Assembly (NCBI GenBank): GCA_028532915.1
Contig: JAQQAI010000004.1
Coordinates: forward strand, 1 to 52,391
Origin: Sphaerochaetaceae bacterium
GTDB lineage: Bacteria > Spirochaetota > Spirochaetia > Sphaerochaetales > Sphaerochaetaceae
DNA length: 52,391 bases
Direction of reading: 5' to 3'
Part shown: positions 33,867 to 38,197 of the stretch, in pieces
Layout of the letters: every line of letters begins with the position of its first letter
Numbering within the stretch: the stretch's first letter is position 1
Position numbers and translations under genes: made by a program
Notes under the pieces: generated by a model
What the model was told of the DNA's origin: nothing
Seen by the model: the letters and a program-made list of their open reading frames with translations, nothing else
Database searches by the model: none

Positions 33867-34217
33867 ATGAAAGAGCACAAGATATTCTCGATGAGTTTCT
33901 CGAGTGTCTACCCGCACTATATCGCGAAGGCGGAAAAGAAAGGAAGAAACAGGTCGGAAGTCGACAGAATCATATGCTGGCTCACCGGATACGATGAGAA
34001 AGGTCTGACAAAGCAGCTCGAGAGCAACTGTTCGTTCCGGACTTTCTTTGCTGAAGCACCCCTCATGAATCCTAAAAGAGTATTCATCACGGGAACCATC
34101 TGCAACGTCAAAATCGAACAGATCACCGATCCGCTGATGAAGGAAATCAGGTATCTCGACAAACTGATAGATGAGCTGGCAAAAGGTAAACCCCTCGACA
34201 GAATATTAAGAAAATGA
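33867..34217 (+). CDS. DUF2200 family protein
   Basis: A 116-residue protein of the well-conserved but uncharacterised DUF2200 family. Recognised by [52 protein letters not shown] and [27 protein letters not shown]. It is cytoplasmic, with no signal or membrane segment. The function is unknown. AAAAAGGAGA lies ahead of the ATG. It stands alone, divergent from the c-di-GMP operon and convergent with the next gene, and its leader has two hairpins. Confidence 0.85.
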
Positions 34218-34241: not shown

Positions 34242-35138
34242 CTATATCATGTTCCCTATTTCGGGGATATAGGAGAACGTAAGAGCCATCACATCATTTT
34301 GGACACCTTCATCGCAGGTGTATCTTCCTGATGAGACAGGATTATTGTTTTCATCGATATACAGACCGCTTTTTCCTCTCATCCGGGATGAGACGGCAGC
34401 ATATGTATAGGTTCCGGCCATTGCCGATGCCGTGATAGACTTCTTCGATTTCAGTGCGTACATCTTCTTCATCAGGCTGCTGACATCAGGATACCGGGAT
34501 ATGTCGATCTTGACGTTTGTGACCCGGATGCAGTTGCATGTGACCGGAGAGTTTTCTAATCTCCGCCTCAGGTGATAGGTATAGATGATCTGGGCCTTTT
34601 TCGACTGATAATAAGCATTTGATACAGAAAATCTTCTCCTGCGGAATTCGGGGTCATACAGATCAACCTTCATAAATGGTTTCATGATGAGCCCTTTTGA
34701 TGCGACAGTGATGATCCTTCCTTCCTCCGACCGCTTCAAGCTGTTCAAAAGCAGCTCGGTGAGCAGTACCGGCCCGATATGATTGGTAGCCCAGATACTT
34801 TCGATGCCCTCTTCGGTATAGACCGGCTTCTTCCTCGATATATCGAAGTCGGCAGCATTGTGAATGAGCACATCGATGACACCATGCTCACGAGTCACAG
34901 AGTCGGCGAATTTCCTGACGGAGCTCATAAGACTCATATCGACGATCATAAGCTCCACAGATCTTTGCGGGCTCTCATCAAGGATCCTTTTCAGAGCAGC
35001 CTCTCCCCGTTCTCTTGAACGGCAGGCCAAAACCACATGAAACCCCTCATCTGCGATCTGCACGGCAGCCTCGAAACCGATACCGGAATTCGCTCCGGTG
35101 ATGATACAGACTTTTTTATCCATATCGATATTGTACAT
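34242..35138 (-). CDS. Short-chain dehydrogenase/reductase
   Basis: A classical SDR: cofactor motif TGANSGIG at the N-terminus, a structural HNAA (in LIHNAADF), catalytic Ser in ITVASKG and Tyr-x3-Lys in YYQSKKA. It resembles the retinol dehydrogenase/protochlorophyllide-reductase-like SDRs with an extended C-terminus. The R in CRSRERGEA after beta-2 favours NADPH. The substrate is unknown. It is transcribed divergently from a TetR gene whose operator lies in the shared 115-base gap, so it is a likely target of that regulator. The start could be ATG 35138 or ATG 35123; neither has a good ribosome site. Confidence 0.82.
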   Translation of the reverse strand: MYNIDMDKKVCIITGANSGIGFEAAVQIADEGFHVVLACRSRERGEAALKRILDESPQRSVELMIVDMSLMSSVRKFADSVTREHGVIDVLIHNAADFDISRKKPVYTEEGIESIWATNHIGPVLLTELLLNSLKRSEEGRIITVASKGLIMKPFMKVDLYDPEFRRRRFSVSNAYYQSKKAQIIYTYHLRRRLENSPVTCNCIRVTNVKIDISRYPDVSSLMKKMYALKSKKSITASAMAGTYTYAAVSSRMRGKSGLYIDENNNPVSSGRYTCDEGVQNDVMALTFSYIPEIGNMI

Positions 35139-35218
35139 GGAAACAAGGACCTATTCCAAGAAGAGATTTCTAATAATTCCCCTTGACGATACCATGTATT
35201 ATAACAATATTGTAATCA

Positions 35219-35237
35219 ATTAGGACGGTCGTCCGAA
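35219..35237. promoter_or_regulatory. TetR-type operator
   Basis: GGACGGTCGTCC (35223-35234) is a palindrome with GGACG/CGTCC arms and TT/AA further out. It lies between the SDR and tetR starts, 20-31 bases before the tetR ATG and downstream of a TTGACG box (35183-35188). Position and form suit a TetR autoregulatory site. Confidence 0.6.
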
Positions 35238-35253
35238 TTAAGGTGGTAAACAG

Positions 35254-35796
35254 ATGAACCAAAAAGAACAGATACTCCAGTCCGCATACAGCTGCATCAC
35301 AGAGAAAGGCTATGCGAACAGCTCTATGAGAGATATCGCACGGAAGGCAGATGTTACCCTCAGTCAGATACATTACTACTTCGGAAGCAAAAAAGAATTA
35401 TTCAGTGAGGTGCTTCACCATCTGACAGAAAACTACCTTGATCATATGAGAAACATCCTTCAGGACGACACGAAAAAGGATGAGGATCTTTTCACATCTA
35501 TTTCAACGATAGTGACCGAAGCTTCTGAAGATTCTTCACTGATCTTCGATTTTGCAAGTCTTTCATTAAAGGAGGAGAGCTTCGGCTTTCAGTTTCAGAA
35601 GCTCTTCAAGGAGATGGAACAGCTGCTTACCGAGCAGTTGAGAAAAAGATCTTTCAAAATCGATGCGAAGGCAGTCTCGAAAATAGCGATCGGAACAATA
35701 CTGGGAGCATCTTTTCAGTCTGCTATCGCGCCTGACCAGAAGCAGCCCGTTCTTGAGGCGGTAAGACAGCTCAGTGAAGTTCTGACGACAACATAA
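35254..35796 (+). CDS. TetR/AcrR-family transcriptional regulator
   Basis: An N-terminal TetR helix-turn-helix (KEQILQSAYSCITEKGYANSSMRDIARKADVTLSQIHYYFGSKKELFSEVL) and a variable all-helical ligand domain ending in a TetR_C-like segment. AGGTGG precedes the ATG. It probably represses itself and the divergent SDR through the GGACGGTCGTCC site, and perhaps also the CmpB-HD gene that follows 20 bases after its stop. Confidence 0.88.
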   Translation: MNQKEQILQSAYSCITEKGYANSSMRDIARKADVTLSQIHYYFGSKKELFSEVLHHLTENYLDHMRNILQDDTKKDEDLFTSISTIVTEASEDSSLIFDFASLSLKEESFGFQFQKLFKEMEQLLTEQLRKRSFKIDAKAVSKIAIGTILGASFQSAIAPDQKQPVLEAVRQLSEVLTTT

Positions 35797-35816: not shown

Positions 35817-37016
35817 ATGAAGACCGAAGACCTGCTATTCTACTATGCGGCATACTTTCTGCTGCTATCATTTACCGGATGGATAATCGAAACTGTCTAC
35901 AGATCGGGGGGAAACAGAGAGTTCACCAATGCGGGATTGCTGAGAGGGCCGTATGTACCAATCTACGGAACAGCAGCCACCATGATACTTGCGGTGGATA
36001 GGGCATTCTCCTCTTTTCCCTTCGTGTGGGAAGTACTGTCTCTGGCGCTGTTCGCCACTGTCCTGGAATACTTTACATCATATATTCTCGAAAAGATGTT
36101 TTCACTCAAACTCTGGGACTATTCAACGCGGAAATTCAACCTTCACGGACGCATCAGTCTCAGATACAGTCTGTACTGGGTCATCCTGGTCATCGCCGAT
36201 CTGCAGGTTCTTCAACCGCTCATCTTCGAAACCATCGTCGAATATGATTCTCTTGCGCTGCGGGCGGGAACCTGTGTGATGTTCATCATATTTATCATCG
36301 ATGTATGCGTTTCGTTCAACCTGCTGATCAAGGTGAGAAATCTGTATCAGACTCTTGAGACAAGGAAAGAGGAGATCTCTTCGAGGATCTCTAAGAGATC
36401 TCCTCTCATCTGGCGTGATTTCAGGCGTCTGCTCCAGTCGTTTCCGAAACTTGTCGACAAGGTTTCCACAGGGACTTTCGATGCGGTAGCTTTGGTCGAC
36501 GAAGGGAGAGAAAACTCAATGACGATCATGAAAGAGTCTGAAAGAAGGGACTTTTCGGTATTGACCGGTGAAATCCTCGAAAATCCTGTATACTGTGAAT
36601 TGAAAAACTATCACCACCATGAACACTCCATCTACGATCATTCAATTCTCGTTGCCCAGTATTCTTATAAGATTGGTCTCAAACTGCAGAAAGTGATATC
36701 GTTGGATATGAACTCGCTTGTCAGAGGAGCGCTCCTTCACGATTTTTTCCTCTACGACTGGAGAAAACAACGACCCGAGAACGGAAGGCTCCATGCATTC
36801 GAACATCCGAAAGAAGCCTATCAGAACGCAACTGTGACCTTCGGACCTCTTACTCCTGTTGAAAAGGATATCATTCTCAAACATATGTGGCCGCTCAACA
36901 TCATCCTGCCCAAGTATATTGAGACTTGTATCGTCACTGTTGTCGATAAGATCGTCTCATCCAAAGAGTTTATTGCGGAAGCGGTGAAGGACCAGAAAAA
37001 AAAAGAGGAATTATGA
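35817..37016 (+). CDS. Fusion of a CmpB-type membrane domain with an HD phosphohydrolase domain
   Basis: Residues 1 to about 175 match the CmpB / putative ABC-transporter type IV domain: FTGWIIETVYRSGG, REFTNAGLLRGPYVPIYGTAA and LEYFTSYILEKMF, with five or six helices. A charged linker (about 176-205) follows. Residues about 250-390 are an HD domain: HHHEHSIYDHSILVAQYSYKIG and RGALLHDFFLYDWR (His308-Asp309), ending with a helical tail. Both parts are normally found as separate proteins; this single chain places an HD hydrolase at the membrane. Its substrate could be a nucleotide or a phosphorylated lipid, but the sequence does not say. The linker is encoded by a 14-bp perfect inverted repeat (36368-36406). 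It is probably cotranscribed with tetR. Confidence 0.78.
   Translation: MKTEDLLFYYAAYFLLLSFTGWIIETVYRSGGNREFTNAGLLRGPYVPIYGTAATMILAVDRAFSSFPFVWEVLSLALFATVLEYFTSYILEKMFSLKLWDYSTRKFNLHGRISLRYSLYWVILVIADLQVLQPLIFETIVEYDSLALRAGTCVMFIIFIIDVCVSFNLLIKVRNLYQTLETRKEEISSRISKRSPLIWRDFRRLLQSFPKLVDKVSTGTFDAVALVDEGRENSMTIMKESERRDFSVLTGEILENPVYCELKNYHHHEHSIYDHSILVAQYSYKIGLKLQKVISLDMNSLVRGALLHDFFLYDWRKQRPENGRLHAFEHPKEAYQNATVTFGPLTPVEKDIILKHMWPLNIILPKYIETCIVTVVDKIVSSKEFIAEAVKDQKKKEEL
36368..36406 (+). repeat. Perfect 14-bp inverted repeat at the domain junction of the CmpB-HD gene
   Basis: AGAGGAGATCTCTT (36368-36381) is exactly complementary to 36393-36406, with an 11-base loop. It falls within codons 184-197, the linker between the membrane and HD domains. 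Confidence 0.7.
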
Positions 37017-37072: not shown

Positions 37073-38197
37073 ATGTTTTCTCTCAACGACCTCTTCATAG
37101 CAATGGGATTCGCATGGATTCTCTCAAGTTCGGTACAGCTTTTGGTGAATAAGAAGAACAAGGAATCAGAAGCTGTATCGGAAGCGATATTCCTGATCAG
37201 TATCTTCGGATGGACACTGGTCGATAATTTCATAAAGACAGCAGATATGAGCAATTTTCTGCTGACTTTCATCCTGTCTGTCAGCAGAAACAGCTATTTC
37301 CTTATAGGTCCGGCTCTTCTGTTCTATGTATCATCTCTTCTTTCGGGAAGAATAAAGAACTTCCAGAAGATTGTTCATCTTCTGCCGTTTTTTATTGCGA
37401 CGGCCTATTCGCTGGTCAGTTCGGCAGGACTGGAACCTGTCATTGCGACGGGTCCGAAAAATGTTGAGAGCATCATCTTCCTCCGTCCCGGGTTCAAAAG
37501 GGAATCACTGGCACTTATTTCCCAATGGGGATACAGCCTGTACACATTTTTACTCATCAGGCGTCATGCAGGAACCGTCGTCGATTTCTATTCGAGAAAA
37601 ACAATACAGAATACCCTTTTCTGGCTTTTCTATCTAATTGTTTTCTACATAGCATTCTTCACCACGGATTTCTTCGTTCTCCTGTTTCCCGGAGGCTCGG
37701 AGTCTCAGCGTCTGACCGTCTCGATGGCTCTGCGGATCATCCCTTCGTTATCATTCATCTTTCTTTTTTCGTCCTTCGCCCAGAATCAGCCGATAATCAG
37801 GGATGAGAAGGTCCTAGATGATGTCAAATATAGAAACTCGGCGATATCTGATACCGATTCGAAAAGAATCTTTGCCCAAATAGAGACTATTCTCAATAAG
37901 AAGAAACTCTACCTCGATACCGACATCAATCTCGACGATCTCGCACGCGAGGCGGGAGAGACACGGCACAGAGTCTCAGAGGTGATAAACAGAGAATCCG
38001 GCCAGAAATTCTATTCATATATCAACGGATTCAGACTGGCAGAGTTCATCTCGGCAGTGAAAGAGAACAGGTTCCCCGACTATACTGTCATCGCCATTGC
38101 CCTTGAATGCGGATTTAAATCCCAATCCGCATTCTATAATCTTTTCAAAGCGAAAACCGGCATGACTCCCAGGGAATTCATCAAAAAGGAGACCTGA
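37073..38197 (+). CDS. Membrane-bound AraC-family regulator with 7-helix N-terminus
   Basis: Residues 1 to about 240 contain seven hydrophobic helices. The AraC DNA-binding domain occupies about 275-374: LDDLAREAGETRHRVSEVINRESGQKFYSYINGFRLAEFI (first HTH) and YTVIAIALECGFKSQSAFYNLFKAKTGMTPREFIKK (second HTH with the signature). Such 7TM-AraC proteins are thought to sense an envelope or extracellular signal and bind DNA while staying in the membrane. No obvious partner operon is marked; the neighbours are the CmpB-HD gene and the lectin-like gene. The ATG is preceded by AAGG. Its stop codon is inside the terminator hairpin shared with the converging gene. Confidence 0.88.
   Translation: MFSLNDLFIAMGFAWILSSSVQLLVNKKNKESEAVSEAIFLISIFGWTLVDNFIKTADMSNFLLTFILSVSRNSYFLIGPALLFYVSSLLSGRIKNFQKIVHLLPFFIATAYSLVSSAGLEPVIATGPKNVESIIFLRPGFKRESLALISQWGYSLYTFLLIRRHAGTVVDFYSRKTIQNTLFWLFYLIVFYIAFFTTDFFVLLFPGGSESQRLTVSMALRIIPSLSFIFLFSSFAQNQPIIRDEKVLDDVKYRNSAISDTDSKRIFAQIETILNKKKLYLDTDINLDDLAREAGETRHRVSEVINRESGQKFYSYINGFRLAEFISAVKENRFPDYTVIAIALECGFKSQSAFYNLFKAKTGMTPREFIKKET

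Follow-up and report, generated by a model that had tools for sequence, protein, structure and literature searches.

A TetR-paired CmpB-HD fusion protein as a candidate membrane unit for phospholipid and ether-lipid turnover in anaerobic bacteria

CmpB-HD is a fusion of a CmpB membrane domain and an HD domain that is encoded by a Sphaerochaetaceae bacterium, and it is best read as a TetR-controlled membrane unit whose presumed reaction belongs to phospholipid or ether-lipid turnover. The pairing of the membrane domain with HD is real and widespread among anaerobic bacteria, and a share of the CmpB/HD units adjoins PlsA/PlsR/Ger genes and other lipid genes in three lineages. We have middling confidence that CmpB-HD serves the phospholipid metabolism of anaerobes as a metal-dependent hydrolase unit anchored in the membrane, its likeliest task being to turn over or remodel ether phospholipids (plasmalogens and alkyl ethers). 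The features of the window, which is the whole stretch of 52,391 nucleotides that was analysed, are collected in Table 1.

Table 1. Positions of the CmpB-HD gene, its domains and its neighbours in the window
Feature	Position	Strand	Basis
CmpB-HD fusion gene, 399 aa	35817..37016	+	single ATG-to-stop frame; full-length relatives exist
CmpB (PF06541) membrane domain, residues 13-167, five predicted helices	35853..36317	+	Pfam
Linker, low confidence, residues ~189-232	36381..36512	+	AlphaFold2 pLDDT
HD fold, residues 232-393 (Pfam HD 273-378)	36510..36995	+	Pfam and fold comparison
Predicted metal-ligand set H275, H308, D309, H326/H330, H356, D377	36639..36947	+	conservation; ligand role and metal count inferred
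TetR regulator, 180 aa, ends 20 bp upstream of CmpB-HD	35254..35796	+	PF00440, E 1.9e-13
Near-perfect 22-bp palindrome, candidate TetR operator	35218..35239	+	10-base arms, 9/10 paired, 2-base spacer
Sigma-70-like promoter match directly upstream of palindrome	35183..35211	+	weak
AraC-type regulator, starts 56 bp downstream of CmpB-HD	37073..38197	+	PF12833
SDR oxidoreductase, divergent	34242..35138	-	PF00106
DUF2200 protein beside SDR gene	33867-34217		Pfam E 4e-50

The fusion frame features no internal stop codon, and the opposite-strand frame is riddled with stops. The N-terminal domain matches PF06541 with an E-value of 2.5e-41 (141.8 bits, cut-off 25.9) and covers model positions 2-151 of 151, i.e., the whole model, which places it in the CmpB family, and the C-terminal domain matches PF01966 with an E-value of 2.3e-5 (25.1 bits, cut-off 22). 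Both Pfam domains are above their curated cut-offs, and the fusion of CmpB and HD in one frame, recognised in a preliminary description of this DNA, is borne out. A Pfam scan of CmpB-HD up to an E-value of 1 returned no models besides these two. The BcrAD_BadFG activase and DUF2229 domains are absent from the protein according to Pfam, so it does not belong to the PlsA/PlsR/Ger family; judged by domain content, PlsA is a neighbour of CmpB-HD relatives and not their homologue.

Full-length relatives were found on contigs titled Spirochaetes, Syntrophaceae/Smithella, Fibrobacteres, Myxococcota, and others in a scan of species genomes (best 80 loci). Our annotation of the loci revealed that CmpB and HD are fused, encoded by adjacent same-strand genes, or located apart. 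There are 93 distinct CmpB/HD units, of which 69 are fused and 24 are split into neighbouring gene pairs. The preliminary description had allowed for a fusion confined to this one sequence or created by a joining error and had asked about separate CmpB and HD genes elsewhere; the fusion occurs in many lineages, the separate genes exist as the 24 pairs, and the many fused and adjacent occurrences rule out a chance or artefactual fusion. The tree of the 93 units features 7 changes between the fused and split labels, at least 4 of which are forced by well-supported (starred) branches, and the window's unit sits on a long branch (1.7) with no well-supported position. Fusion and fission thus happened repeatedly while the partnership persisted, which strongly suggests that the two halves function jointly. 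No relative was returned by one scan of viral contigs, and a viral origin was set aside.

The whole protein was used as the query against three genome samples: the class of the window (n=248), the phylum of genome G269, whose contig is titled Syntrophaceae (n=297, the Desulfobacterota sample), and the class of genome G273, whose contig is titled Clostridia (n=196, the Clostridia sample). The two halves were counted manually from match coordinates and were scored as together when they lie in one frame or are neighbours. In the window's class 90 genomes match and 25 have the halves together, two of them by weak HD matches in one frame. All 17 matching Desulfobacterota genomes have them together, 15 as a single frame and 2 as adjacent genes. 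Among the 96 matching Clostridia genomes the number is at least 18, with 16 adjacent pairs and 2 single frames, one of which contains a stop. The remaining matching genomes hold CmpB-only or HD-only matches, or both located apart.

Among 79 sequences the invariant or near-invariant residues of the CmpB domain are G21, W22, E25, N38, G40, G44, P45, P48, Y50, E84, E92, W100, D101, Y102, N108, G111, and D162. The AlphaFold2 model has a mean pLDDT of 85.3 for the whole protein and 94.7 for CmpB alone, and the pLDDT falls below 50 at linker residues 189-201 and 217-232. Loops 1 and 3 of the 79 sequences carry on average 3.0 and 3.4 Lys plus Arg residues and the stretch beyond the last helix 2.3, against averages of 0.3 for loop 2 and 0.4 for loop 4. 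The five helices and this charge distribution suggest that the N-terminus is outside and that the HD domain is in the cytoplasm, in agreement with the earlier placement of the HD site at the inner face of the membrane. Given that topology, most of the invariant CmpB residues would lie at or near the inner face, as judged by their place in the sequence.

Comparison of the CmpB model with solved structures gave a best Foldseek E-value of 7.5 and a best VIA Z of 4.0 (35 chains), and no known fold was found, which does not prove that the CmpB fold is new. A sequence search of the solved structures with the whole protein or with a whole-protein profile returned nothing useful, and no established function of the PF06541 family was found among the papers listed by the literature searches. 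The family name, 'putative ABC-transporter type IV', would fit a role in which CmpB moves or flips a phospholipid or a lipid precursor, with HD alongside it as a hydrolase for regulation or proofreading. The domain is polytopic with conserved acidic residues in or near the helices, and genes of the transport-type MMPL family and for LolA-like proteins precede some units, e.g., the CmpB-HD pair in locus L154, all of which is consistent with transport; however, solved transporter folds show no clear match to CmpB, and among the 103 neighbour families of the 93 units the ABC ATPase family (PF00005) does not reach the commonest 25. Such a role is considered unlikely, although a non-ABC flippase, or an ATPase encoded elsewhere, would be compatible with these results.

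In 66 HD domains with less than 65% mutual identity, conservation is 98-100% at each of H268, H275, H308, D309, H326, H330, H356, and D377 and 95-100% at W315, N337, E349, P359, and E369. The H...HD...D motif of the HD superfamily is present in the HD fold (H275, H308, D309, D377). The residue order H...HD...H...H...D is typical of two-metal HD enzymes, and the extra histidines between the HD pair and the last Asp (H326, H330, H356) are each found in 98% of the 66 sequences. The residue set is as expected for a two-metal hydrolase, and its members are predicted to be the metal ligands. A second HD protein of the same subfamily is encoded in the same genome, on the - strand and with no adjacent CmpB (G000:C3:2843-3319, locus L183).

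Fold comparison with the whole model matched the HD part only, and the matches include SAMHD1, YhaM, PgpH chains, and others with VIA Z of 10.6-12.8; Foldseek with the whole model found nothing at an E-value of 0.001 or better. The closest sequence relatives with solved HD structures are Bd1817 and chains of YqeK type, one of which is named bis(5'-nucleosyl)-tetraphosphatase, with a profile overlap of about 37-58 of 149 positions, the YqeK-type chains reaching only 37-48 of 149. These relatives, together with the presence of the PgpH HD domain among the structural neighbours (Foldseek probability 1.00, E-value 0.27-0.37; VIA Z 10.6-11.1), would suit a protein in which CmpB is a membrane sensor and HD hydrolyses a nucleotide second messenger as in PgpH, the lipid genes being regulated targets or co-regulated bystanders. 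The Foldseek E-values are weak, however, SAMHD1 outscores PgpH in VIA, no Pfam model for anything but CmpB and HD appeared, and lipid-type genes are the commonest operonic partners beside TetR, so this explanation appears possible but doubtful.

The lipid reading of CmpB-HD draws on the company of PlsA. PlsA, or PlsA with PlsR, produces plasmalogens and the homologue Ger produces alkyl ethers (PMC9702350, PMC13274423, PMC11150832), and which of the two activities a homologue has is not distinguishable from sequence (PMC13274423). It was only in 2021 that the PlsA-PlsR route of plasmalogen synthesis was recognised in anaerobes (cited in PMC9702350). A TetR gene is reported to be located directly upstream of pls in E. 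faecalis (PMC9702350), and plsA-plsR alone suffice for plasmalogens in E. coli (PMC12838417). The latter result makes a role of CmpB-HD in turnover or control likelier than a synthetic role.

In the Desulfobacterota sample PlsA is directly beside the unit in 7 of the 17 carriers (G276, G340, G356, G403, G446, G486, G570), 2 of which feature the order TetR-CmpB-HD-PlsA. The spirochaete clusters are PlsA(-8)CmpB(-4)HD in G268 and PlsA(4)HD(-4)CmpB-HD(-11)CmpB in G271, and G268 has the only PlsA-adjacent unit of the 25 in the class sample, among the matches listed. Clostridial plsA-plsR clusters with CmpB occur in 5 of 96 matching genomes. Four are plsA-plsR-CmpB clusters with no HD (G597, with TetR in front, G753, G599, and G632), and the fifth is TetR-HD-CmpB-plsA-plsR in G574, where the plsA frame is interrupted; plsA lies there in two frames between CmpB and plsR (L192:4778-7741). 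G599, G632, and G753 are likely near relatives, as are G446 and G570. In the 93-unit tree the PlsA-linked units form two separate groups, and the Clostridial ones are outside that tree. Because the linked units clump on the phylogeny, the counts overstate the number of independent events. An estimate of chance PlsA adjacency, which assumed 2 copies per 2,500 genes and independence, was set aside because the tree does not grant that independence. A PlsA-type match at an E-value of 1e-30 or better is found in 84 of 90 CmpB/HD genomes of the class and in 100 of 158 others (Fisher 5.8e-8), and this co-occurrence was given no weight because it is confounded by phylogeny and by weak activase hits.

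Several further arrangements were observed in these loci. Tandem arrays of CmpB, CmpB-HD, and HD genes stand behind a PlsA-type gene in L103 and L185/L108 (contigs titled Spirochaetaceae and Treponema). A short, divergent CmpB-like gene of 131-140 aa stands in front of plsA-plsR-CmpB in L189, L190, and L191. Genes for ABC1-type kinases recur with CmpB/HD or PlsA (L194, L196, L172; Clostridia and Desulfobacterota samples), and in L172 the kinase gene comes after PlsA.

The neighbours of the 93 units were tallied as same-strand genes chained by gaps of at most 120 bp, up to three on each side, which gave 104 proteins, and 140 genes at least four places away in the same loci were used as a control set. 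The gene calls in these loci are the longest frames and are crude, so that some neighbours are missed or spurious. The commonest Pfam families among the 104 are TetR (11), the PlsA/Ger type defined by DUF2229 with BcrAD_BadFG (8), patatin (6), AMP-binding (5), and MMPL (5), whereas the 140 distant genes include 3 TetR and at most 1 of each of the others. Tested one by one in that order, the Fisher values are 0.0057, 0.0053, 0.025, 0.052, and 0.052, and the four lipid-type families pooled give 24 against an assumed 4 (p 8.5e-7), kinship between loci being ignored in all of these tests. The MMPL count is overstated, as one of the five (L176) is an AcrB-type pump and another at the same place (L177) probably is as well, so the MMPL evidence is weaker than its count. 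The tally revealed nothing pointing to nucleotides. Of the earlier suggestion of a nucleotide or phospholipid-turnover system, the phospholipid half is therefore supported by gene context, and the nucleotide half finds nothing in the tally, yet the solved HD relatives include nucleotide hydrolases.

Counted per unit (n=93), PlsA accompanies 8 units, TetR 10, and any of the five families 26; 77 units lack both PlsA and TetR, and 33 stand without any chained same-strand neighbour. The 67 units with none of the five recurrent families close by, the restriction of PlsA linkage to some clades, and three related units that adjoin ParA/ParB genes would agree with a pairing that is real but functionally diverse, i.e., a generic membrane-anchored phosphohydrolase with varied lipid and non-lipid tasks and a clade-limited PlsA link. 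The window-type TetR connects the window unit with units of Clostridia, among them one clustered with plsA-plsR, and we regard such diversity of function as very unlikely. CmpB-only genes in related or same-family genomes often stand before a PF01168 (alanine racemase-type) gene (8 loci); they keep other company, and the lipid reading may thus not extend to all CmpB proteins.

Individual loci add to this picture of the neighbourhood. In L060:4968-7829 one frame encodes a 954-aa protein of CmpB, HD, and an AMP-binding acyl-CoA ligase, the HD part being recognised by profile and by eye, and in its relatives L032 and L056 the ligase is a separate gene with a 4-base overlap. The CmpB-HD of L182:172-2577 (-), whose HD part was assigned by an HD profile and a genome match, runs into a B12-binding radical SAM protein with DUF4070 and stands behind two TetR genes. 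Sphaerochaeta-type loci have genes for an Mbeg1-like hydrolase and a SPASM radical SAM protein nearby. The Desulfosporosinus pairs are set among cobalamin, VTT-domain, and other genes, with no PlsA. In 11 Desulfosporosinus loci (e.g., L087, L090, and L111) a CmpB-HD pair or an HD gene is followed, one or two genes downstream, by a gene for a VTT-domain membrane protein.

In the window the TetR and CmpB-HD genes share a strand and are close together, and no terminator-like site was found in the gap between them. The pairing with TetR that was proposed at the outset is borne out, and the spacing and strand suggest an operon. The AraC-type and SDR genes are placed as originally described, and neither family is among the 25 commonest of the 103 neighbour families of the 93 units, counting same-strand neighbours only; both genes are probably outside the conserved unit. 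The candidate operator was spotted by eye and was not returned by an automated repeat search. Its core, GGACGNNCGTCC, which was picked after the fact, occurs once in the window against 0.01 expected, and sigma-70-like matches in the region number 6 against 6.3 in shuffles. In the genome the core occurs at 3 places, the same number as the backward control, so only autoregulation of TetR is suggested. One of the two other sites is in a 37-bp gap between same-strand solute-binding and ABC ATPase genes, which could be a TetR target, and the other is inside a long helicase-like frame. The genome's own plsA-plsR genes are on another contig with no palindrome core nearby, and TetR control of these genes was rejected as a candidate, since neither of the other sites is near them.

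Among the TetRs of the examined loci, the window TetR aligns over nearly its full length only with those beside Clostridial CmpB/HD genes, including the one of the G574 cluster, and the others match it over about 110 residues or fewer, mainly in the DNA-binding part. A window-type TetR (E-value 1e-12 or better) is found in 9 of the 196 Clostridia genomes, and in 8 of these 9 it is within 5 kb of CmpB/HD, at distances of 98 bp to 4.8 kb; in the ninth genome, G691, there is no CmpB/HD unit within 16 kb. In G652, G686, and G749 a phasin-like gene (Pfam below cut-off) and an ABC1 kinase gene lie between TetR and CmpB/HD, with DegV in two of these loci and a SPASM radical SAM gene in one, and in G704 a patatin gene follows CmpB. 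These annotations are from Pfam for G686, G704, and the G652 kinase and from sequence likeness for the others. In its own class the window-type TetR is found only in its own genome (1 of 248), so this lineage may have acquired the TetR pairing that the window shows.

For a unit of ether-phospholipid turnover the following mechanism can be envisaged. The conserved acidic and aromatic residues of CmpB would hold a phospholipid or lysophospholipid, and the HD site would hydrolyse its phosphoester head group or a phosphate that remodelling releases. TetR would keep the unit repressed until it binds a lipid or acyl signal. The consulted passages on plasmalogens mention no dedicated turnover or control protein apart from a TetR-type regulator, and the terms 'CmpB' and 'HD domain' are absent from the main texts of PMC13274423 and PMC11150832. 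A literature search limited to titles and the beginnings of abstracts, with most subscription journals outside its scope, found among the papers listed no link between plasmalogens and HD domains, between plasmalogens and CmpB, or between CmpB and HD, and none between the plsR gene neighbourhood and CmpB-HD. A membrane-tethered HD hydrolase is of a known kind; new here are its membrane partner and its lipid context. CmpB-HD shares clusters with PlsA in three lineages, which gives the CmpB family a concrete candidate role that can be tested.

The CmpB family presumably includes the vertebrate proteins TMEM229A and TMEM229B. To our knowledge, TMEM229 proteins have no HD domain. Variants at human TMEM229B are associated with the ratios of choline plasmalogens (PMC12393746), and TMEM229B variants also with how much of one choline plasmalogen is present (PMC7522985). 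CmpB and TMEM229 might, as a tentative extension, form an ancient ether-lipid-handling membrane family that in anaerobes works with a dedicated two-metal HD hydrolase, which would be the missing turnover enzyme of plasmalogens or ether phospholipids under its own TetR. If this is true, bacterial gene clusters give the function of a human orphan protein that is linked to plasmalogens by GWAS. There is a precedent in the human plasmalogen desaturase, which was uncovered by way of a bacterial gene (PMC9131029).

CmpB-HD resembles several known systems and differs from each. With PlsA-PlsR/Ger it has gene clusters in common in Clostridia, Desulfobacterota, and spirochaetes that also contain CmpB and HD; however, CmpB-HD is no PlsA homologue and is dispensable for synthesis in E. 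coli. With YqeK-type chains (2ogi, 2o08, 8jja) and the PgpH HD domain (4s1b) it has the HD fold in common, and the H...HD residues are common in the aligned part, but the CmpB-HD subfamily features its own signature of HDFFLYDW, HG..HP, and KHMWPL, unlike YqeK-type and PgpH HD domains. Compared with PgpH, a 7TM-HD c-di-AMP phosphodiesterase, the membrane part here is CmpB and not the membrane partner of PgpH. Relative to the PF06541 family, the window protein has the same N-terminal domain but continues into an HD domain. For TMEM229A/B, whose homology to CmpB we assume, the plasmalogen association of the TMEM229B variants is outside support for the ether-lipid reading.
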